Source: Hymenobacter volaticus
GTDB lineage: Bacteria; Bacteroidota; Bacteroidia; Cytophagales; Hymenobacteraceae
DNA length: 64,000 nucleotides
Direction of reading: 5' to 3'
Assembly (NCBI RefSeq): GCF_022921055.1
Contig: NZ_CP095061.1
Location: 2,891,501 to 2,955,500, forward strand
Part shown: positions 41,561 to 64,000 of the stretch, one piece after another
Position numbering within the stretch: position 1 is the stretch's first letter
Layout: the number at the start of each line of letters is the position of its first letter
Notes under the pieces: generated by a model
Told to the model about the DNA's origin: nothing
Databases searched by the model: none
The model's input: only the letters and a program-made list of their open reading frames with translations
Made by a program: the position numbers and the translations under genes

Positions 41561-41634
41561 GGTTCGGTAGTTCAGTCGGTTAGAATGCCGCCCTGTCACG
41601 GCGGAGGTCGCGGGTTCGAGTCCCGTCCGGACCG
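41561..41634 (+). tRNA. tRNA-Asp (GTC)
   Basis: A 74-nt cloverleaf. The acceptor stem GGTTCGG/CCGGACC has one T-G pair. The D arm is TAGTTCAGTCGGTTAGAAT. The anticodon stem CCGCC/GGCGG holds anticodon GTC at 41595-41597, and the T arm is CGCGGGTTCGAGTCCCG with GTTCGAG. The discriminator base is G, as expected for Asp. The CCA end is not encoded. A terminator follows within 5 nt. Confidence 0.97.
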
Positions 41635-41763: not shown

Positions 41764-42713
41764 TCAGTTAGCTAATCGAGTAGCTGCCCGCGCCGCAAGA
41801 TCTTCGATGTCGGAGCGGCGGGCCAGCACGGCTAGCCACTCGGCTGGAATAGCAGCTTCGCCGTAGTAGATTCCGGCCAGGCCCCTACTACGGCGCCAGT
41901 TGTATCGGTATCGTCGCCGAGGTTGACGGCGGCCAACACTGTTTCGGCAAAGGTATCGTGGCGGAGCAGGCACCAGAACGCGGCTTCCAAAGTGTGCATC
42001 ACGTATCCACCGCTGTTGATAGCCGTGACAGCCATATTGGGCAGACGGCCGCTTAGAATACGTTCAAACTGGTCGGCTTCGCGAGCTGCAATCTTGAGCT
42101 GGTATAACTGAGCTGGTGCTTCTGAGCATAGTTGTGCATAAGCGGCAGTTGGTGCGAGCCCCGCGAGCAGGTGACGCGCCATTTCCAGATATAGAAAACA
42201 GGCAATAGCCGAGCGCACATGCCCATGCGTAACCGCCGACACATCAGAAATTAGGGCGAAGCGCTCAGTTAAGGGCGCTTCTGGCTGGTAAAAGGCTAGC
42301 GGCAAGATGCGCATAAGTGAGCCATTGCCATTGCTGTACTCGTCGGTGCTGCCAGCCAATAGTAGGTCGCTGTCTGCTCTCAGGCGGTTAATGGCCTCAC
42401 GCGTGGTAATGCCAATGTCGAATACCACGCCGTGGGGCGTCCAGAAATTTTGGTAGTACCACCGGCAGCAATTCTCGGCTACCTTACCCACTGTCAAGCC
42501 ATCGGCTATTGCTTCGGCCAAGCAGAACGTGAGCGAGGCATCATCGGACCACGTACCTGCGGGTTGGTTATGGGTACCATAAGCGCGCATGTGCACCACC
42601 GGATCTTGGCGGCGGGCCGTACGGCTTTGAAACTCCACGGGTACGCCAAGCGCATCGCCAACGGCAAGCCCGAGTAAGGCAGCACGAAGTTGTGATTCTA
42701 AAATAGTAGGCAT
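41764..42713 (-). pseudogene. ADP-ribosylglycohydrolase family protein, one frameshift
   Basis: Predicted to remove ADP-ribose from proteins or nucleic acids using two Mg ions. Metal-binding motifs are intact: GLAVGDALGVPVEF, GTWSDDASLTFCLAEAI and NLGDDTDTTGAVVG. Right after this last motif the frame breaks. The next frame supplies GLAGIYYGEAAIPAEWLAVL and the C-terminus. Reading the C4 run at 41882-41885 as C5 restores TTGAVVGGLAGIYYG and about 316 residues, the usual family length. All catalytic residues lie before the break. Probably a sequencing error. It lies in a stretch of RNA repair and nucleotidyl-transfer genes. Confidence 0.8.
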
Positions 42714-42809
42714 ATCACTGTTGATGAGGCTATAGAAGATGAATTCACGATAAAACCTTGATTTTAAGCAAATACCTATCAGGCATGTAAAATCAGTAAA
42801 GACGGCCCG

Positions 42810-43475
42810 TTATTGAAGTAGTGGTAAGAGCTCAGGTAGAGAATTGATGCGGTAGGTGGGCTGAAGGGGCAGATTATCGTTTTCTTGCCCGAAGCCATAG
42901 CTGGCCCAGCAAGAGGCAATGCCGCAGTTGCGGGCAAAACGCAAGTCGGGCGCTGTGTCGCCTATCATGAGTGTGGCACCGGGGCTAATGGCCGAGAATC
43001 GGGGCTGAATCACTTGGGTGAACATGGCCGGGTCGGGTTTGAGGGGCAGTTGCCGGTCGGGCGTATCGCCGAGCACAAGGCTGAAATAGTGCCGCAAGCC
43101 AAACCGACTGAGCGAATTTTCTAGCAACGGCAACCCTTTGTTGCTAATAACCACCGACTCCTTGCCATTGGCCGCAGCAGCAACCAGCACCTGCTCCACG
43201 CCCGGAAATAGGGTAACCAGCTCTTCGGATTCGGTGTTGTAGATGGCGCGGTAAGTATTCACCCAAACAGCAGGCAGCGGCGGCGTACCGGGCGGATGCA
43301 GCCAGAGCAGCATTTCGGGCAGCAACAGCCCCCGCCCTACTGCTTCATCCATCAACGTTTCATCGGGCGGCGGATAGCCTAGTATCTCAAACGTGCGACG
43401 CATGGAATGCTTGATGGCCCGATGTGTATCGCAAAGGGTACCGTCGTAGTCGAAGAGCAGTAAGGAATAGGGCAT
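42810..43475 (-). CDS. HAD-family hydrolase, phosphoglycolate phosphatase-like
   Basis: A 221-residue haloacid-dehalogenase phosphatase. Motif I is FDYDGTLCDT (about 7-16), motif II SVVISNKG, the motif III Lys in LKPDPAMF and motif IV MIGDTAPDLRFARNCG. There is a helical cap domain between I and II (class C1). This arrangement is shared by Gph, PpaX and similar enzymes, so the substrate is open. The ATG at 43475 lies 6 nt after a -7 box; longer in-frame extensions to 43592 would lie upstream of the promoter. Confidence 0.88.
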   Translation of the reverse strand: MPYSLLLFDYDGTLCDTHRAIKHSMRRTFEILGYPPPDETLMDEAVGRGLLLPEMLLWLHPPGTPPLPAVWVNTYRAIYNTESEELVTLFPGVEQVLVAAAANGKESVVISNKGLPLLENSLSRFGLRHYFSLVLGDTPDRQLPLKPDPAMFTQVIQPRFSAISPGATLMIGDTAPDLRFARNCGIASCWASYGFGQENDNLPLQPTYRINSLPELLPLLQ

Positions 43476-43481
43476 AAGGCA

Positions 43482-43489
43482 CAAAAGTA
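43482..43489 (-). promoter_or_regulatory. -7 promoter box (TACTTTTG) of the HAD phosphatase gene
   Basis: Exact TAnnTTTG on the minus strand, ending 6 nt before the ATG; a leaderless transcript is predicted. Confidence 0.6.
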
Positions 43490-43768
43490 CGACGATGTGC
43501 CATGTAACACGAAAGACTATCGTTTTGCATTTGTTAATACTTAGCTCATGGCAAATCACGAAATCATATAGAATTAACTTTAGCCCCTGCAATACTTTTC
43601 ATGTAAATCGACAAGAATATTTTCAGGAATAAAGCCACTGCATCTATCTGAAAATCAACATTATGAAATAAAATAAATTAGAACTATTAAAATCCTTATA
43701 AGAGCAGCACAATTTCTGGCCCCACTCTTGAGTTTATAGCAGCATAACACACCTGACCTCTACTCTCT

Positions 43769-44078: not shown

Positions 44079-45155
44079 TTATTTAACGGATGCGTACCAC
44101 GCCCGCCGCGCTTGAATTAGCAGTAGCTCAGCGGCGGCTTTGTTGGGCGCTTCGGGCAGGCAGGATGCGGCGAAGGCGGCCTCCACTCGCGCTACCAGGG
44201 TTTCTGCTTGCTGCACTAGCTCCTCATATTCGAACTCGCCCCGGCGGATGGCTAGTAGGAACTCCCGGTCGGGGCGGCGGACTTGGAGCTGGCTGGTGAG
44301 GGCAATTTCCTCGGCCATGCGCAAGAGCCGAAACACGTGCAGCATGTTTTTGGCGTCGTAGTTTTTGCCGTGTTGCACGGTGTTCTGGTACCGCTCGGCG
44401 TTGCGCTTGGCTACCCACTCGTGGTACTCCCGAAACACCCGACAGTAGGTGCTGTAGCCGTTGCGATTGAAACTCAGATACGCTACCGGCATCTCCCCTT
44501 TCGGCACCGCCGATAGCAACACGTCCTGCGAAGTTTCCGGGTCGCGCACAAGGCCCCGGTAGCCGTGGCGGCCGTCGGGGTTGTCGTCGATGAACAAGGC
44601 GTAGAGGTCGGTGAGGTGCGGCACGTTGGCTAGGCCGCACTGCGCGGCGCTGATACCCTGCCGAGTTAGCCACTGCTGCACCGGCTGCGCGCCTGCGCCT
44701 ACCGTCACATAGCAGAAATCCAGCACCGATTTACGGCTGGGCGGTTCGGGATGGTTGATTTTCTTGTTCAGACCTTTGGCTTTCCTAATCTGCGCTACGG
44801 CGTACTCGGCAAAGCTCTGCCGGCAAAGCTTGGAGAGAAAAACTTCGGCCCGAAATGCCTCGAATAGAGGGTGGCGGTACACCACACAGTCCTCGGGCGT
44901 GCCGAGCAATTCCAGCACGGTGGGGTTGTTTTTGAGCAGTAATTCAACGAAGCGGCGCAATTCGTAGAACACCTCGTCGTTGGTGGCGTTGGCCACTTGC
45001 GGCACGTATTCCAAGCCGTAGAATTCTTCTTCCGGCAAAATGAATATGCCCTTCAAATCGGTATCCGAGTGAGGTAAATTGGTACCGTAAGCACGGCTGC
45101 CGCTAATGGCTTCAAAGAGAATAAGGCCGCGCTGGCGCAGGTCGGAAATGGTCAT
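44079..45155 (-). CDS. Predicted nucleotidyltransferase, COG3541 type (first of two)
   Basis: A 358-residue protein of the DNA polymerase beta-like nucleotidyltransferase superfamily. The active site is ISGSRAYGTNLPHSDTDLKG (about 17-36): GS followed by two Asp in SDTDLKGIF. The remaining helical region (LKNNPTVLELLGTPEDCVVY, NYDAKNMLHVFRLLRMAEEI) is characteristic of the COG3541 group, which in other genomes is often near RNA ligase and kinase genes. The substrate is unknown; transfer of nucleotides to RNA ends is a plausible guess. A related gene lies 72 nt upstream on the same strand. Confidence 0.8.
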   Translation of the reverse strand: MTISDLRQRGLILFEAISGSRAYGTNLPHSDTDLKGIFILPEEEFYGLEYVPQVANATNDEVFYELRRFVELLLKNNPTVLELLGTPEDCVVYRHPLFEAFRAEVFLSKLCRQSFAEYAVAQIRKAKGLNKKINHPEPPSRKSVLDFCYVTVGAGAQPVQQWLTRQGISAAQCGLANVPHLTDLYALFIDDNPDGRHGYRGLVRDPETSQDVLLSAVPKGEMPVAYLSFNRNGYSTYCRVFREYHEWVAKRNAERYQNTVQHGKNYDAKNMLHVFRLLRMAEEIALTSQLQVRRPDREFLLAIRRGEFEYEELVQQAETLVARVEAAFAASCLPEAPNKAAAELLLIQARRAWYASVK

Positions 45156-45227
45156 GGGCTGTTGCTTTCGGCGCGGATACTGATTCGCGCAACGGATGCA
45201 AGGGGTTCGTAGAAGTCCGCAGAAGAT

Positions 45228-45995
45228 TTAGAAAGGAGCTACAAGCAAGGTTCGGAACAAGGCGTCTAGCGCGGGCGTAGGGTCGGCCACTCTGGTAATG
45301 GGCAACGTGGCGCGTGCTGCCAGCACGGCCTCGTATTCCGCTCGCAGAAAATCGACCAGCAGCGCTGGACGAGGCACAGTGGTTTTCTCGTCGGCCGTGG
45401 CCTTTCGAGACAGCAACTCGTTTACGGTATCGTCCAGCTCGGGCGGCAGCACCTGGCACAACAACTGAAACTCCATGGGCGGCACCTCGGTGGGTTGCAG
45501 CTGAATCCAGCGGGCCGCCAACGAGGAGCGCAGGGCGTAAAAAAGCCGCTTCAACCGCACGTCTGCCGCAACCAAATCGTCTTCTACCCCGCGCCGCATC
45601 AGTCCGGTGTAGTGATTCAGCCCCGCCCGCGCGTTCCAGCAGCTTGTCAGGTGCGGGATCAGTTCCGCTTGAAAGCTAGCCGTTTCCGCATACACCACCG
45701 GCGACTGTAGCCACTCGAAAAGCGCCGCATTGGAGCCGCGTAGCAGCTTTAGCGCTTTGCGCAGTTCCCAACCGGCCAGGTCTAGTTCGTCATCTACCGG
45801 AAAATTGAGCGTGTCAGCGCCCTCATCAAGAGTTAGGTACCAGTCGGTGGGGTGGGCGTAGATGAACCGCACGTCGTAGTCGGAATCTGGGGAGGGGAAG
45901 CCCCAGGCTCGGCTACCCGATTCGCACGCATAAAGGATGCGGATGTTGTGGCGAGCTTCGAGCTGGCTAAGGGCGTTTTGGATGCGGGCGTGCAC
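45228..45995 (-). CDS. Predicted nucleotidyltransferase, COG3541 type (second of two)
   Basis: A 255-residue member of the same superfamily as its neighbour. The active-site region is ACESGSRAWGFPSPDSDYDV (about 23-42) with RFIYAH after it. ELDLAGWELRKALKLLRGSN and LFEWLQSPVVY are typical of this COG3541/YcgL-like group. It begins with GTG (MHARIQNAL). About 100 residues shorter than the downstream copy and clearly diverged from it, so an old duplication or two distinct specificities. The two genes are presumably cotranscribed. Confidence 0.8.
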   Translation of the reverse strand: MHARIQNALSQLEARHNIRILYACESGSRAWGFPSPDSDYDVRFIYAHPTDWYLTLDEGADTLNFPVDDELDLAGWELRKALKLLRGSNAALFEWLQSPVVYAETASFQAELIPHLTSCWNARAGLNHYTGLMRRGVEDDLVAADVRLKRLFYALRSSLAARWIQLQPTEVPPMEFQLLCQVLPPELDDTVNELLSRKATADEKTTVPRPALLVDFLRAEYEAVLAARATLPITRVADPTPALDALFRTLLVAPF

Positions 45996-46331
45996 GAAAT
46001 AATAGAGTAAGCCGGAAAACTGTAAGTTGAGGTGCTAATTGCGCAATATGCGCGGCATACGCAATCAGCGCGTCAACTACTGTGTTTACTTCACCCCGTG
46101 TTAAATAATGATTTGAAGCTTTCAGCAATGTGGGCCTGGCTAGCAATCATCCAGTATGATGCTGGAAATTAGGATAACACACGGAGCAGTTGTTATGGCG
46201 CTTCGGCCGTTACTGTCGGTCTCTCTGGGCTATGTACTCTGTCGTCTACGCCTAGGTATTTACATCACCACGGAAGCCCGCCAGTGCATTATCTAAGTAC
46301 TATACAGCAATGAAATCTGATTAGCAATATC
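45996..46331. other. Intergenic stretch
   Basis: About 335 nt between divergent genes. Only a small hairpin (CCAGTATGATGCTGG, near 46150) was noticed; no exact -7 box, gene or RNA. Confidence 0.4.
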
Positions 46332-48233: not shown

Positions 48234-49961
48234 ATGTCTTTCTCAACTCGTCGTTTCTTTTCTTGGCGCCGGACGGCACCGGTGTGTTTACTTGGCCTAT
48301 CATTAGCCGGCTGCCAGTCCCAAACATCTACTGCCACCACAGAGACTACTACAGAAGCCAAGACAGAGTCCGACCCAGCTGCTACCCCAACCGGCGCCAT
48401 TTCAACGGCTAGCATCCGCAAGTATCTGCAAGCTGTTTCTTCCGACGATATGCAGGGTCGCAAGCCGTTCACGGTGGGCGAAGAACGCAGTACCAAGTAC
48501 TTAGCCGACCAGTTCAAACAGCTCGGCCTCAAGCCTGGCCCCGATGGCAGCTACTTCCAGGCCGTGCCCATGGTGGAAATTACGGGTACGCCCGCTGCCA
48601 CCATGCAAATCAAAGGCAACGGCCAGAACCTGAGCTTTACGTACAAAACTGACTTTGTGGCCTTCACCCAACGCGAGCAGCCACAGGTGCCCGTCAGCAA
48701 CTCGCCGTTGGTATTTGCCGGCTACGGCGTGGTGGCACCCGAGTATAAATGGGACGATTACGCGGGCCTCGATGTGAAGGGCAAAACGGTAGTGGTTCTC
48801 GTCAATGACCCCGGCAACGCGGGCAACGATACCACTTTCTTCAACGGCAAGGCCATGACCTATTACGGCCGCTGGACCTACAAATACGAGGAAGCCGCCC
48901 GCCACGGCGCGGCCGGTGTGCTGATTGTGCACGACACCAAGCCGGCCGCCTACCCTTGGTCGGTGGTGCTGAGCGGGGCCACCAGCCCGAAGCTGCGCGC
49001 CCAAACGCCCAACAAAGGCGCCGATAAGTGCGCTCTGGAAGGCTGGCTGACCATGGACGCTGCCAAGAAGCTGTTCCAGGCCGCCGGCCAGAACTACGAC
49101 CAACTCTATGCCGCAGCCAACAAGCCCGGCTTCCGCCCCCGTCCCCTCGGCGACCTTACGCTTACGGCCAGCATAGCCAACAAGCTCCGCCGCCAGACCA
49201 GCCGCAACGTGCTGGCCGTGCTGCCCGGCACTACCCGCGCCAACGAATACATCGTCTACTCCGCGCATTGGGACCATTTCGGGGTGGGCAAAGCCATTGC
49301 TGGCGACTCCATCTACAACGGCGCCGTCGACGATGGTACCGGCCTGGCCGCCTTGCTGAGCATCGCCGAAGCGTTCCAGAAAGCCCCGCAGAAGCCTGCC
49401 CGCAGCATTGTGTTCCTGGCCGTGACCGGCGAAGAGCAGGGCCTGCTCGGCTCGGCCTACTACGCCCAGCACCCGCCCTATCCGCTCAACAAAACCGTGG
49501 CCGACCTGAACATGGACATGCTCTGGCCCTACGGCGAGATGAAAGACCTGACCGTCATTGGCTACGGCCAATCGGAGCTAGAGGACTACGCCCGTGCGGC
49601 AGCCAAAGAGCAGGACCGCTACGTGCTGCCCGACCAAACGCCTGAAACCGGCATGTTCTACCGCTCCGACCACTTCAACTTCGCCCACGTGGGCGTGCCT
49701 TCGCTTTACGCCAGCGGCGGCTTCGAGAGCCGCACCCGCGGCAAAGAGTACATTGCCGAGCAGCGCCAGAACTACACCACCAACATGTACCACAAGCCCG
49801 CCGACCAGTTCGACCCGAGTTGGGACCTATCTGGCATCGCCCAGGATGCCCAACTCTACTTCCGCGTCGGTCAGCGCTTGGCTGGCGAAACCACGTTCCC
49901 GCAGTGGCGCGCCGGCTCGGAGTTCAAAGGTGCCCGGGACAAGAGTATGAATGGGCGGTAA
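48234..49961 (+). CDS. M28-family aminopeptidase-like lipoprotein with PA domain
   Basis: A 575-residue exported zinc peptidase. The signal ends in LLGLSLAGC, a lipobox. A PA (protease-associated) domain occupies about 150-300 (AGLDVKGKTVVVLVNDPGNA). The M28 dizinc site is complete: His and Asp in YSAHWDHFG, bridging Asp in NGAVDDGTG, general base and ligand Glu in TGEEQGLLGS, Asp in DLNMDMLWPYG, and His in YRSDHFNFAHVG. It probably releases N-terminal residues from peptides in the periplasm or at the cell surface, feeding uptake systems such as the POT transporter. Confidence 0.9.
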   Translation: MSFSTRRFFSWRRTAPVCLLGLSLAGCQSQTSTATTETTTEAKTESDPAATPTGAISTASIRKYLQAVSSDDMQGRKPFTVGEERSTKYLADQFKQLGLKPGPDGSYFQAVPMVEITGTPAATMQIKGNGQNLSFTYKTDFVAFTQREQPQVPVSNSPLVFAGYGVVAPEYKWDDYAGLDVKGKTVVVLVNDPGNAGNDTTFFNGKAMTYYGRWTYKYEEAARHGAAGVLIVHDTKPAAYPWSVVLSGATSPKLRAQTPNKGADKCALEGWLTMDAAKKLFQAAGQNYDQLYAAANKPGFRPRPLGDLTLTASIANKLRRQTSRNVLAVLPGTTRANEYIVYSAHWDHFGVGKAIAGDSIYNGAVDDGTGLAALLSIAEAFQKAPQKPARSIVFLAVTGEEQGLLGSAYYAQHPPYPLNKTVADLNMDMLWPYGEMKDLTVIGYGQSELEDYARAAAKEQDRYVLPDQTPETGMFYRSDHFNFAHVGVPSLYASGGFESRTRGKEYIAEQRQNYTTNMYHKPADQFDPSWDLSGIAQDAQLYFRVGQRLAGETTFPQWRAGSEFKGARDKSMNGR

Positions 49962-50020
49962 AGCAGGTTGCTTGTTGAGGATTTCGTTTATTAGCTATCA
50001 TATAAGTATATCTGCACAAA

Positions 50021-50947
50021 ATGGGGGAAACTTCTAAAAAACGAGGTGAATTTGGAGAAGACATAGTAGAAAGGCTTCTCACTCTGATAGGCTGGGATAA
50101 TTTACTTACAGGACGAGACTTAGAATGTTTTAATCCGATAGAGCATTCTATATCAACTAGAGATAGAGCAAATCATGGTGTTGACTTTATTTATCAATAT
50201 GATTGCCCTTTATTTAGTGACACACAAATGTTTATATTGACATCATCAAAATTCAATGATAAATATCCGTCAAATCCTACTAGCAAGTTCAAAGCTCACC
50301 TACGAGATATTGCTTATGCTTTAGACTGTTTTAAGAAATCATCGATAAGGAGCAAACTAAAAAATACGGACATAAGATATACTTGTAAACAAACAGGTGT
50401 TATTTTCTGGCTTGACAATTCAAGTTCATACGACAATGTACTTGAGCGTTTAACTGATTTTAAAATAGACGATTCATTACAATTTGACACAGTTTATCTT
50501 GTTGACAATCATCGTGCACGTTTCATACATGATACTATCACGTTTGCCAAAAGACAATTTTCTGGCAAAACGGTAGAATTCTTTCATCCGACAACAGGAT
50601 TCAATAACACTGTCAAAAACAGAATAAGTAGCAGCGATACGCTACCCGTTCAATATATAAATAGCAGCATTCTCCCTCTAAAAGTAATTGACGATGAAAG
50701 TGAATATCTCATAATCAATTGTATTGACAAGTTTGAAGAAGATACTTTAAGAAAGTTATTGAGCCTTTCTCAAAAACTAACAGAAAACTGGGGACAAAAG
50801 GTATATATTCTATTCCCCGATTTCAATCATGATATGTACTCATCTACAGTAGAAGATATAAAGCTAGAATTAAAAGACAAGCGTTTTGCAAAAAAAGTTA
50901 TAGTAAGTTCTTTTAACATAACGTTTCGAACAGTTGAACAATTCTAA
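50021..50947 (+). CDS. Nuclease-like protein, candidate GAPS4a-type defence component
   Basis: A 308-residue soluble protein. The opening KKRGEFGEDIVERLLTLIGW and the later NHGVDFIYQYDCPLFSDT and FILTSSKFNDKYPSN follow the order of a restriction-endonuclease-like (PD-(D/E)xK) core: helix with Glu, strand with Asp, then a strand ending in Lys. The usual E-x-K is replaced by S-S-K. The rest is alpha/beta (LIINCIDKFEEDTLRKLLSL, VYILFPDFNH). From memory this resembles GapS4a, half of the two-gene GAPS4 antiphage system; not verified. AT-rich codon use unlike neighbours points to horizontal transfer. The next gene overlaps by 14 bp. Confidence 0.6.
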   Translation: MGETSKKRGEFGEDIVERLLTLIGWDNLLTGRDLECFNPIEHSISTRDRANHGVDFIYQYDCPLFSDTQMFILTSSKFNDKYPSNPTSKFKAHLRDIAYALDCFKKSSIRSKLKNTDIRYTCKQTGVIFWLDNSSSYDNVLERLTDFKIDDSLQFDTVYLVDNHRARFIHDTITFAKRQFSGKTVEFFHPTTGFNNTVKNRISSSDTLPVQYINSSILPLKVIDDESEYLIINCIDKFEEDTLRKLLSLSQKLTENWGQKVYILFPDFNHDMYSSTVEDIKLELKDKRFAKKVIVSSFNITFRTVEQF

Positions 50948-52130
50948 CAACTTAAACTCTGAGCTTAGTTCTCTACTTCCATACGGAGATGGGATTAAGC
51001 CATTACTTGTAGCTAGCAGTTTAAGTGAGCATGATTTGAGATTTATGCTACAGAAACGCGGAGTGTTCGTCAAAGCACCACAGCGCAATAATACTGTTCC
51101 ATTATTGGCTAGTATGATATTAAGCCCTAATGAATTTGAAACTTTAAGAAATAGGCAACATCAAAAAGAAAGTAATATAAAACCCTTTACTGCTCAAAGC
51201 GAATGGATAGGCCAAAATACAAGCGTTGCAGATGTGCTGTCAGACAAGTTAGATACGATAATTAAAAGCTTAACAAAAGAAGAATCTCCATACTCTATTA
51301 AAAATTACAATATATCATATTTATCTAATGACAAAATACTTATTGAAGGTGAAATAGAAAGGCGTGACTGGACTAAAGATGTTTTCTCTATTACTTCTCT
51401 ACACCCTTGGAGATTCACAATAGAAAGATCGGCTGCAGGCAACATAGTGCAGTATATAGCTGAGACTACAGTACCAGAGACTAAGCATTTAACAAACCAA
51501 TTTCAAGCACGCATCCACCAGCAGTTTCAACTTTCAAAAGTAGTTGACAATACCAAAACCATACAACGCGTTGTTGCAACACATTTTAAAGGCAATCATT
51601 TTATTTTTGAGTATCTATTCATTTTTACAAAGATAAGTTTCTCTTCACTTAAGTTTCAGAGAATAATAGACATTGAAACTGGAATAGACAACCGTTTAAA
51701 TTTTCCTGATAATTTCAAATGGCTTAAAGGAAATATTGGTGAATTAAAATTAACCGCACTACACGGTAAAAAACTCGAATAAACTGATATCATCGAAATT
51801 GGCAAACTAGGAATTCTTATTTTTGGTGAAATAGATGCAGAATTCAATTTTCACTATCAAGATATAAGAGGAAAGTGTATTATACAGTATGGATTTCCTA
51901 AGTTCTACGATAAACGAGGGCACGTTGAATTTGAGACTAAAATTCAAAGGATAGACCTTAGCCATGAATGCTCACATGTTTCAAAAGAAGCAGTAAAACG
52001 GTATCTACTTGCAGAATTTCAAAGGGACAAGCATATAATATTTGAAGATTTTAGAACTAAAGGCAAAGTTGATCCTGACCCCAAGGACGAGGACAACCAA
52101 TACGGTATACTATTCCCTTGGGCAGGTTAA
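50934..52130 (+). pseudogene. Candidate GAPS4b-type partner, interrupted by an in-frame stop
   Basis: Starts at a TTG inside the end of the previous gene (14-bp overlap), giving MNNSNNLNSELSSLLPYGDG. The N-terminal region (LLVASSLSEHDLRFMLQKRG, then ASMILSPNEFETLRNRQHQK) recalls GapS4b proteins, from memory. A TAA at 51780-51782 ends a 282-residue product. The same frame then stays open for about 115 more codons (IIEIGKLGILIFGEIDAEFN to GILFPWAG) to a TAA at 52128-52130. That downstream part has coding character and no start codon of its own at its head, so the gene was probably about 398 codons long. Either a real nonsense mutation, which could disable the system, or a sequence error. Confidence 0.6.
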
Positions 52131-52199
52131 ATTGTTACTTACTCCACCATAATCTGAGTCTCCAACCAACCCTCCTCCCGTAATCAGCATCTTCTCTGC

Positions 52200-53243
52200 A
52201 TGAAGAAACCAGGCTTACTCGTGCTACTGTTCGTTGCTAGTCGCTCGGCTTGGTGCCAAACTACCCCCGCTCCACTTCCCGATTCTGTTAAGACCTTTCT
52301 GGATAAGAGTCTGACGCTGCTGGAGACGTACTCGCTGGAGCGTGGCACTGTAAATTGGCCCCAGCTGCGCCAGACGGTGTACCAGAAGGTTCAGGGGGCG
52401 CGGTCGGTGCGGGAGTTGCTGCCGATTTACCCGTTTGTGTTCGAGCAGTTGAAGGATGACCACGGCTGGTTGACTTACCAAGGCAAAACCTACAAGTGGC
52501 ACAACACCGCCCGCCCCGCCTACACCAACACCGCCGTGAAAGAGGCCATTGCCAAGAAGCCGGGCGTAGTAGTTAAAATGCTGCCCGGCAATGTGGGCTA
52601 CGTGCAGTTGCCGGGCATCAACGCCGGCGGCAGCCTACAAGCCATGCGCGACGCGGCCAAAGTGGTGCAGGATTCCCTTTGCCGCCTTAACCCCGATAAA
52701 GCCAAAGCCTGGATTATTGATTTGCGCCTGAACACCGGTGGCGCTATGGCGCCCATGCTCGCCGGCATCGCCCCCCTCATCGGCGACGGCTACCTGGGCG
52801 GCTTCGTGGATAAAGACGGCAAGCCTGATGAGCAGTGGTACCTTAAGTAAGGCAACTTCTACATGGATACCCTGCAGGTGACCAACTTGCAAAACCGCTG
52901 CCCCGTTCGGAAAACCGATAAGCCCGTGGCCGTACTCCTGAGCGGCATAACTGCCAGCTCCGGCGAAATTGTGGCTATCAGCCTGAAAGGCCGCCCCGCC
53001 ACCCGCTTTTTCGGGGAGCCTACCTATGGTGCCACCACCGCCAACGAAAGCTACCGCATCAGCGGCAATTCCTACCTCACCATCGCCGTCATGCAGGAAA
53101 CCGACCGCAACAAAGCTGTATACCGCTCCAACGTCACACCCGATGAGCTTGTCACCGGCGGCGACAACTTTGTAGACCTGACCAAAGACACGAAAGTAGC
53201 GGCGGCCCTCAAGTGGCTGAAAACGGCAAGCAAGGTTAGATAA
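52200..53243 (+). pseudogene. S41-family peptidase (C-terminal processing type), in-frame stop
   Basis: An exported serine protease of about 347 codons. There is a signal peptide (PGLLVLLFVASRSAWC). An N-terminal region follows, then the TSP-like domain: KMLPGNVGYVQLPGINAGGS, WIIDLRLNTGGAMAPMLAGI and, after the break, VLLSGITASSGEIVAISLKG, where SSGE carries the catalytic Ser. A TAA at 52848-52850 separates QWYLK from GNFYMDTLQV in the same frame. The catalytic Ser lies after it, so the product as read would be inactive. One substitution would restore the frame. It lies next to the AT-rich island but has normal GC content itself. Confidence 0.78.
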
Positions 53244-62329: not shown

Positions 62330-62743
62330 TTAGGCCGCAACTGGCTCTGAAACTTCCGTTTTGGCGGCTACGGCCTCCTGTGGGTGCATGATATTCATTC
62401 GGTGTTGGCTGCCCCAATGGTGCAGCGCATCAATCACGGGGAGCAGGGTATCACCATAAGGGGCTAGCGTGTACGTAACGGCCACGGGCGCCACATCCGC
62501 TTGTACGCTGCGCGATAAGAGCCCGTTCACTTCCAACTCCTTCAACTCTTTGCTGAGCATTTTGGCTGTGATGCCCGTCACGTCGCGCTGCAATTGCTTG
62601 AAACGTTTCGGCCCTTCCAACAGCGACACAATGATGGCCAGCTTCCACTTGCCTCCGAGCAGGTCGAGAGCGTCGCGGACGGAACGCATGGCGGAATTGC
62701 ATTCCTTGGTGTGTAAGTGCGGAGATGAACCGAGAAGTGGCAT
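62330..62743 (-). CDS. HxlR-family transcriptional regulator
   Basis: A 137-residue winged-helix DNA-binding protein, probably dimeric. The family signature is complete: CNSAMRSVRDALDLLGGKWK, LLEGPKRFKQLQRDVTGITA, MLSKELKELEVNGLLSRSVQ and VTYTLAPYGDTLLPVIDALH. The Cys before SAMRSV is the one used for redox sensing in some members (e.g. HypR-like), though the signal here is unknown. The start MPLLGSSPHLHTKE at 62743 is preferred over 62782. Confidence 0.88.
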   Translation of the reverse strand: MPLLGSSPHLHTKECNSAMRSVRDALDLLGGKWKLAIIVSLLEGPKRFKQLQRDVTGITAKMLSKELKELEVNGLLSRSVQADVAPVAVTYTLAPYGDTLLPVIDALHHWGSQHRMNIMHPQEAVAAKTEVSEPVAA

Positions 62744-62842
62744 AAACCAAATATCGTTAGAAATCAGGCGAGTATTCCACAAGACACCGGTATACTTCAG
62801 TAAACCAGTATCCGAAATAAACTTAAAACGAGTTGTGCGGGC

Positions 62843-64000
62843 CTAGCCAATCCTTTCAAATACAGCCAGTTGGGAGGGTGCTCCTACTTGCGCGTCGTGC
62901 GGGCCAAGTGGCTCAACCCGCACTTGGTAGCCATGGCGAGCAGCCACCTCCGCGGCCCAAGTGCTGAACTGCGCTTCCGTCCACTCGAAGCGGTGGTCGG
63001 AGTGGCGAAACTGGCCGGCTGAAAGTTTTTCGAACTTCTGGTTGTAGGTGGCATTGGGCGTGGTCAGGAACACGACGCCTGGGCGGGCACGCGCAAAAAG
63101 CACTTGTTCAAACGCCGCCAACCGGCCCTCGTCGAGGTGCTCGATGACTTCCACCACGGCCGCGGCATCAAACCCGGCTAGGCGCGGGTCGTGGTAGAGT
63201 AGAGAGCCCTGCACCAAGGACAGTCGTTCGCGCTGGCGCGGGGGCATTTCGGCAAGGTGCAGCCGCTCCTGCGCCCGCAACAATTCCTGATACGACACGT
63301 CCATGCCCAAGATGTGCTCGATCTGCGGTTGCTGAAGCAGACGGCGCACTAGCTTGCCTTCCCCGCACCCAAGATCCAGCACCCGCTTCGCTCCTACCCG
63401 TCGGATTTCCTCGGCTATCCGAGCCAGGCGTAGGTCGTGGAGCTTCTGTTTTTCGGCAGCCGGTTCCGCGTTGTTTCCACTTGCTGCGTGAGTTAATGCT
63501 GTTGTTTCGTCGGTTGCTATTTCCGCTACCTGGGGTTCAACTTCCAGCACATCATCCGTTGCTGCTTCGTCGGCAGATAGCAGCCGTTTCAGCGTCGGGT
63601 TCACGTATTCAGCAAACCGCAGGTAGCGGCGCGTAATAAACTCCCGGTCGGGGTGCTGAGGCAGCCACTCCGCGCCGCGGTGCAACAGCTTTTCGGCTTC
63701 GGCCGGGCCTATCCAGTAGTGCTTGTCGTTGTCGAGAACGGGAATCAAGACGTAGAGGTGCGTGAGCAGGTCGCGCAGGCGGCGGGCCGCGTGCCGCAAC
63801 CGCAACGTGTAGTAGCGACTGTCGCCCCACGCTGGCACAGTCGGGTCGAGTGGGTGCGCGTCGGTTTCCACCTCGTAGCCAAGGGGCGCGAAGAGGCGGT
63901 GCAGCTGCTCGGCGCTGGCGGCAGGCAAGGCGGCCACGGTAGCTTCGAGGGGCAGCAACGCTTCGGGCAAGTCGGGGCGGTCCTTGCAGGTGCCGTTCAT
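62843..64000 (-). CDS. hen1: 3'-terminal RNA ribose 2'-O-methyltransferase Hen1, 5' end outside the window
   Basis: The last 385 residues or so of bacterial Hen1, which adds a 2'-O-methyl at the 3' end of a repaired break so the RNA resists re-cleavage. The visible part begins in the N-terminal Pnkp-activating domain (TCKDRPDLPEALLPLEATVA, GDSRYYTLRLR, DNDKHYWIG). An acidic linker (about 140-170) follows. The SAM methyltransferase has VLDLGCGEGKLVRRLL, the metal-binding EVIEHLD and FRHSDHRFEWTEAQF. The Met at the window edge is internal; full-length homologues have roughly 100 or more further N-terminal residues, so the gene continues to the right. Partner of Pnkp on the same strand. Confidence 0.93.
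   Translation of the reverse strand: MNGTCKDRPDLPEALLPLEATVAALPAASAEQLHRLFAPLGYEVETDAHPLDPTVPAWGDSRYYTLRLRHAARRLRDLLTHLYVLIPVLDNDKHYWIGPAEAEKLLHRGAEWLPQHPDREFITRRYLRFAEYVNPTLKRLLSADEAATDDVLEVEPQVAEIATDETTALTHAASGNNAEPAAEKQKLHDLRLARIAEEIRRVGAKRVLDLGCGEGKLVRRLLQQPQIEHILGMDVSYQELLRAQERLHLAEMPPRQRERLSLVQGSLLYHDPRLAGFDAAAVVEVIEHLDEGRLAAFEQVLFARARPGVVFLTTPNATYNQKFEKLSAGQFRHSDHRFEWTEAQFSTWAAEVAARHGYQVRVEPLGPHDAQVGAPSQLAVFERIG

Follow-up and report, generated by a model that had tools for sequence, protein, structure and literature searches.

A GAPS4-like gene pair with an interrupted GapS4b lies in an AT-rich insert of Hymenobacter volaticus

RESULTS

The insert carries GapS4a followed by an interrupted GapS4b.

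The DNA analyzed here, a stretch of 64,000 nucleotides from Hymenobacter volaticus (the window), contains an AT-rich insert with two genes that match GapS4a and GapS4b, the components of the anti-phage system GAPS4. Both genes lie on the forward strand, with GapS4a first and GapS4b directly adjacent, and they overlap by 14 nucleotides (50934 to 50947). A sequence-only reading of the window had reported this overlap, quoted short motifs from both proteins, and proposed a GAPS4-type system; the overlap and the motifs are present as described, and the profile matches given below bear out the proposed identity.

The first gene (50021 to 50947) encodes an uninterrupted protein of 308 amino acids, a PD-(D/E)xK-type nuclease subunit by family assignment. 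It scored 338.5 bits against the NCBIfam model NF047933, above the curated cutoff of 270, and residues 1 to 298 aligned to positions 1 to 302 of the 302-position profile. The Pfam family PF26115 is precomputed for this protein (P0017). Our local Pfam search matched neither GapS4a nor GapS4b, although precomputed assignments to PF26115 and PF26110 exist for most homologues. PHROGs contained no match for GapS4a or for an intact relative of GapS4b (P0001), the 2023 PADLOC models gave only a weak PglZ match for GapS4a (E value of 0.026) and none for the GapS4b pieces, and a sequence search of the PDB returned weak matches only for both proteins (E values of 0.47 or worse). A protein database search with GapS4a yielded 50 proteins, including the one encoded in the window.

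We assessed the putative nuclease motif across 27 loci, out of 29 entries profiled. One entry (L083) duplicates the GapS4 DNA of a Flavobacterium locus (L067) exactly and another (L078) lies on a contig that starts within GapS4b, and both were left out; two weak partial matches, L081 (29.1 bits) and L082 (18.9 bits), had been excluded before and are not among the 29, and earlier fetches of some loci were replaced by longer ones of the same place. GapS4a appears to carry the acidic and lysine residues of a PD-(D/E)xK motif as E13 (codon 50057 to 50059), D55 within HGVDF (codon 50183 to 50185), and S75-x-K77 (codons 50243 to 50251, including S76), the last being the candidate equivalent of (D/E)xK. 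Among the 23 readable loci that lack a second nuclease domain, D55 and K77 occur without exception and E13 occurs in 22, with a glutamine in the remaining one (L056). The canonical motif has an aspartate or glutamate at the position of S75; GapS4a departs from it, with a serine in all 26 readable loci. In an AlphaFold model, the N-terminal half of GapS4a aligned at moderate Z scores with several nucleases, among other chains. The nuclease motif that the sequence-only reading had placed in this gene is conserved in relatives.

The second gene starts at a TTG codon and is open for 282 amino acids (50934 to 51782), ending at an in-frame TAA (51780 to 51782). The same frame continues beyond this stop for 115 codons and a natural stop (51783 to 52131). 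The sequence-only reading had run the gene through to about 52131 and had overlooked the TAA. The two pieces match the GapS4b model NF047934 collinearly, the first at positions 1 to 264 (160.7 bits) and the remainder at positions 279 to 354 (48.7 bits), and all other matches of this gene had E values of 0.017 or worse. Searching the window's own genome for GapS4b gave one match, of 215.6 bits when read through, with one TAA within it. This is below the curated cutoff of 300 bits. Of ten intact relatives that we scored, however, seven near ones (P0001, P0002, P0003, P0005, P0010, P0015, and the L063 protein) reached 215.0 to 237.4 bits and also fell below the cutoff, whereas the GapS4b proteins of L064, L066, and L072 reached 329 to 375 bits. 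The low score is therefore a property of the clade.

The insert occupies a variable slot between two peptidase genes.

From GC content and breakpoints in DNA similarity, we placed the insert at 49963 to 52158; it has no strand of its own. GC content is 33.6% over positions 49972 to 52141, compared to a mean of 54.0% (standard deviation, 4.0%) for windows of equal length across the 64 kb. The lowest value elsewhere, in windows of the insert's length, is 46.6%, so the insert is the sole strongly AT-rich stretch, and the abrupt drop in GC content described in the sequence-only reading is confirmed. GC content at third codon positions is 26 to 28% in the insert genes versus 74 to 77% in the neighboring peptidase genes. 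The left neighbor, on the forward strand at 48234 to 49961, is an M28 peptidase gene (PF04389) of native composition, whose best matches in 11 relatives of the same genus are 80 to 87% identical. The right neighbor, also on the forward strand (52200 to 53243), encodes an S41 peptidase, with PF03572 recognized in both halves. That the insert is flanked by GC-rich peptidase genes had been noted before and is correct, but the S41 gene is split by an in-frame TAA (52848 to 52850); its homologues in nine relatives are open frames of 361 to 487 amino acids that are 61 to 86% identical.

The M28-S41 slot was found in 6 of the 24 same-genus relatives searched, with 0.45 to 1.64 kb between the two genes; in the others, the S41 gene was not found, gave only a distant match, or was located elsewhere. 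None of the six has GapS4 in the slot, and none is listed as a carrier in our family-wide search. The slot content varies. Three relatives (G140, G068, and G128) have a 221-amino-acid protein there, with HEAT repeats recognized by Pfam in G140 and the others alike by eye, and G128 has an additional small gene before it. G044 has two small genes, G142 has a 485-amino-acid protein without a Pfam match, and G163 has little room, with S41 present only as a remnant. DNA similarity between the window and these relatives breaks on the left at 49945 to 49962 and resumes on the right at 52159 to 52162 (G044, G068, and G142), 52187 (G163), or 52256 (G128 and G140). The block was probably acquired horizontally. 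We saw no repeats pairing its boundaries among 16 direct and 13 inverted repeat families, which are mostly weak and intragenic. No tRNA gene lies at the insert (ARAGORN found a single one in the window, at 41561), and beside the insert's two genes there is no room for an integrase.

GapS4b is sparsely distributed. It was detected in 3 of 204 genomes of the family (the window's own, G169 from its genus, and G063 from a different one) and, in two further sets, in 10 of 390 genomes and in 6 of 395, counts that include the window's own genome each time as well as partial matches. The sampling is biased to Bacteroidota, and one scan relied on a single peptide pattern, with 12 of its 19 stretches confirmed; for viral contigs, 1 of 59 was confirmed. 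These counts and the comparison of the slot agree with the earlier suggestion that the pair is an island and not a fixture of the genus.

A scan of the window for split genes by codon usage, to which AT-rich genes such as GapS4b are invisible, returned the S41 gene and three other same-frame pairs, all on the reverse strand (44079 to 46034, 41832 to 43598, and 62330 to 64000). In these three, the first start lies 20 to 32 codons past the stop, and given this spacing they are probably ordinary neighbors rather than split genes.

The tail of GapS4b is well conserved beyond the premature stop.

A protein search with GapS4b yielded 16 homologues, among them P0001 to P0003 (392 to 398 amino acids, 74 to 84% identical). 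We compared identity after the stop with identity before it and found 88% and 81% for P0001, 89% and 84% for P0002, 69% and 75% for P0003, and 86% and 88% for P0004, for which only residues 61 to 282 were comparable before the stop. The tail contains no further stop and aligns without gaps to P0001 to P0004. A gene that had died long ago would be expected to show more damage; the stop must therefore be recent, unless it is an error.

An error of sequencing or assembly, in which case the strain carries an intact and working GAPS4 operon, is an unlikely explanation that nonetheless deserves a hearing. No other lesion is visible in the tail, whose conservation is close to that of the rest of the gene, and the second in-frame TAA, in the S41 gene, lies only 1.07 kb away; such a cluster of single-codon stops is what local errors could give. 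Errors in long reads are typically insertions or deletions, however, and the frames of both GapS4b and S41 are in register on the two sides of their stops. Moreover, G163 shows decay of its S41 gene in the corresponding slot; 37 residues with one TAA are left, and the DNA matches that of the window at both ends and not in the middle, indicating that real decay occurs in this slot. The protein database search recovered the window's own GapS4a and not its GapS4b protein, which fits annotation as a pseudogene without proving one.

The other copy within the genus is broken as well. In G169 (L003:2402-3500), GapS4a is uninterrupted, whereas a frameshift breaks GapS4b close to the position of the window's stop; by eye, this pair is located among other genes. 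The sequence around the G169 break has short T and G runs at which slippage could occur, and we considered programmed frameshifting there, but a plain frameshift accounts for the break equally well. In G063, GapS4a and GapS4b form one whole frame.

These two copies raise the question of whether the 282-amino-acid GapS4b could itself be functional, as a natural short form, through readthrough of the stop, or as an on/off switch. Their interruptions lie near each other (around positions 277 and 290 on our own 380-position GapS4b profile), as a switch would predict, and in both copies GapS4a is uninterrupted and the GapS4b tail is still recognizable. The lesions differ in kind, however, being a nonsense codon in the window and a frameshift in G169, and since the reading frame of the window's GapS4b stays in register across the stop, slippage plays no part in it. 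A whole GapS4b frame is found in 24 of the 27 loci. In addition, a count from the alignment of 13 intact relatives gave 62 invariant positions, 17 of which lie in the tail, making it unlikely that the truncated protein is fully functional. We regard a functional short form as quite improbable. It would be wrong to describe the sequenced locus as an intact system, and as judged from its sequence, the system of the window is most likely inactive or impaired.

GapS4a and GapS4b are consistently paired, and one clade has replaced the nuclease.

GapS4a precedes GapS4b in all 27 loci. The three without a whole GapS4b frame are the window and G169, in which it is broken inside, and L068, whose frame diverges from the profile and ends 84 nucleotides short of the contig end. 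Two departures from the pattern were seen at the margins. L081, excluded above, has a GapS4b remnant of about 57 residues on the reverse strand (L081:1477-1710, G275), with no GapS4a in the 3.2 kb examined; L082 contained nothing GapS4-like on a later check. In Bacteroidetes bacterium UKL13-3 (L071:6001-6447), GapS4a without its N-terminal nuclease half lies beside a whole GapS4b, and the missing half was not found among open reading frames of 40 amino acids or more.

Seven of the 27 loci contain single-frame fusions of GapS4a and GapS4b. Four are single open reading frames of 673 to 714 amino acids (L004:1501-3633 and L091:1371-3500 on the forward strand, L092:1571-3592 and L093:1301-3445 on the reverse strand). 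Two others, of 895 to 897 amino acids, consist of an effector-type endonuclease, a part of GapS4a, and GapS4b (L089:1395-4088 and L090:1594-4281, both on the reverse strand) and are followed by an overlapping gene of the NA37 family. L088 (1965-4690) has the same parts, but a frame change separates the extra domain from what follows. The first approximately 97 residues of these three match the PADLOC "Effector" endonuclease model PDLC00735 (E values of 6.9e-15 for L089, 1.7e-18 for L090, and 1.2e-14 for L088), which we take to be linked to CBASS effectors; Pfam and NCBIfam did not recognize this extra N-terminal domain.

The same three loci have lost the candidate active site of GapS4a. Across L088 to L090, D55 is replaced by N, E, and N and K77 by L, I, and L, and E13 falls in a gap. 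Both D55 and K77 are thus lost in 3 of 3 loci with a second nuclease and, as given above, kept in every readable locus without one. In a tree of 662 columns, these loci group as a single clade (support of 100), which points to nuclease replacement as one evolutionary event and not three. Fused forms occupy two places in this tree, L056 with L088 to L090 and, separately, L091 to L093; the nodes between are weak (53 to 58), so the fusion may have arisen once or twice.

NA37 genes and defense-type genes lie beside GapS4 in relatives.

In 10 of the 27 loci, a gene of the 37-kDa nucleoid-associated family (NA37, PF04245) lies directly beside GapS4, upstream in L064 and L065 and downstream in L066, L067, L069, L070, L084, and L088 to L090 (for example, L064:4940-5989, L066:8049-9095, L069:4933-5979, and L070:3657-4703). 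Three of these calls were checked against Pfam and the rest were made with our own profile, and the count is a lower bound because some flanks are short. For comparison, 99 genomes of the phylum yielded 17 NA37 genes, spread over 16 genomes, so adjacency in a third of the loci is hardly due to chance, although we computed no probability. The loci are not independent, as they comprise two clades (L066, L067, L069, L070, and L084; L088 to L090) together with L064 and L065. NA37 had no match in the window's genome and was absent from the fetched flanks of L060 to L063, the loci closest to the window in the tree. A literature search with limited journal and preprint coverage listed no title, among its matches, that presents NA37 or NdpA as part of a defense system.

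Other neighbors were seen as well. In Candidatus Marithrix (L063:3971-5903), an AriA/AriB (PARIS) pair lies immediately upstream of GapS4, and in L099 (1944-11403), a GapS4-NA37 cassette lies near genes that by eye resemble those of conjugative elements (ParA-like and TraG-like).

An alternative is that the pair has nothing to do with defense and is a stray nuclease pair serving housekeeping or a mobile element; the conjugation-like surroundings of L099 could be cited in its favor. We consider this highly improbable in view of the curated family identity, the sparse distribution of GapS4b, the foreign composition of the block, and the defense-type neighbors in three of the scanned relatives, namely, PARIS, TmtA-like, and methyltransferase genes.

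DISCUSSION

We conclude that the AT-rich block is probably a horizontally acquired GAPS4 anti-phage operon in which GapS4b has been hit by a recent nonsense mutation while GapS4a is uninterrupted. What the sequences show is family identity, the nuclease motif, the stop codon, the variable slot, the constant partner gene, the fusions, and, in one clade, replacement of the nuclease. If the window were annotated from GapS4a alone, the broken partner would be missed.

In working relatives, GapS4a may act as a nuclease that uses E13, D55, and S75-x-K77, and GapS4b would bind it and keep it quiet. On a phage cue, GapS4b might release or direct GapS4a, with GapS4b and the C-terminal half of GapS4a together sensing the phage and controlling the nuclease. 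The nuclease would then cut DNA and infection would stop, probably through sacrifice of the cell. The fusions suggest that GapS4a and GapS4b work as one unit. Because loss of the GapS4a active site coincides with a fused second nuclease, there is reason to think that DNA cutting is the output and that detection falls to GapS4b together with the remainder of GapS4a. In the window, GapS4a is left with a shortened GapS4b, and the system would have lost its function; that the cell tolerates this combination suggests that GapS4a alone is nontoxic or poorly expressed.

A broader and more tentative proposal, which could well prove wrong, is that GAPS4 is modular, with the C-terminal half of GapS4a and GapS4b as a sensing scaffold and the nuclease as an exchangeable part. 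In one clade, the native site would have died and an effector-type endonuclease been fused in front, and several lineages would have added an NA37 gene as a third component; the window would hold a decayed form of the plain two-gene type. The NA37 neighbor suggests a possible third part of the system.

GAPS4 was reportedly first described by Mahata et al. in Nature Microbiology in 2024. The window's pair resembles that system (NF047933 plus NF047934) in having both genes in the same order with a short overlap, a GapS4a above the curated cutoff, and the putative nuclease motif. It differs in that its GapS4b is divergent, below the curated cutoff like its intact near relatives, and interrupted and in that its host belongs to the Bacteroidota. 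A genome of the same class as the host, G784, carries GapS4 DNA that does not differ from that of Flavobacterium L067. PMC12715929 and PMC12259885 cite the GAPS4 description and mention Gamma-Mobile-Trio elements. A literature search that lacked most subscription journals and bioRxiv listed no title, among its matches, on GAPS4 as a phage defense.

Nuclease subunits also occur in other systems. HamA of Hachiman works with a helicase, and McrC works with the McrB motor; GapS4a differs from both in that the PDB search gave no sequence match to them and in that the two-gene block contains no further gene. The fused GapS4 variants (L056 and L091 to L093; L088 to L090) share the two domains of the window's pair but join them in a single polypeptide, whereas the window has two genes, and L088 to L090 differ further in having lost the GapS4a motif, in carrying a second nuclease domain in front (as a separate frame in L088), and in being followed by an NA37 gene. 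The locus in the window is probably a decayed copy of an already known system, and the nuclease exchange and the NA37 neighbor in its relatives are the parts worth following.
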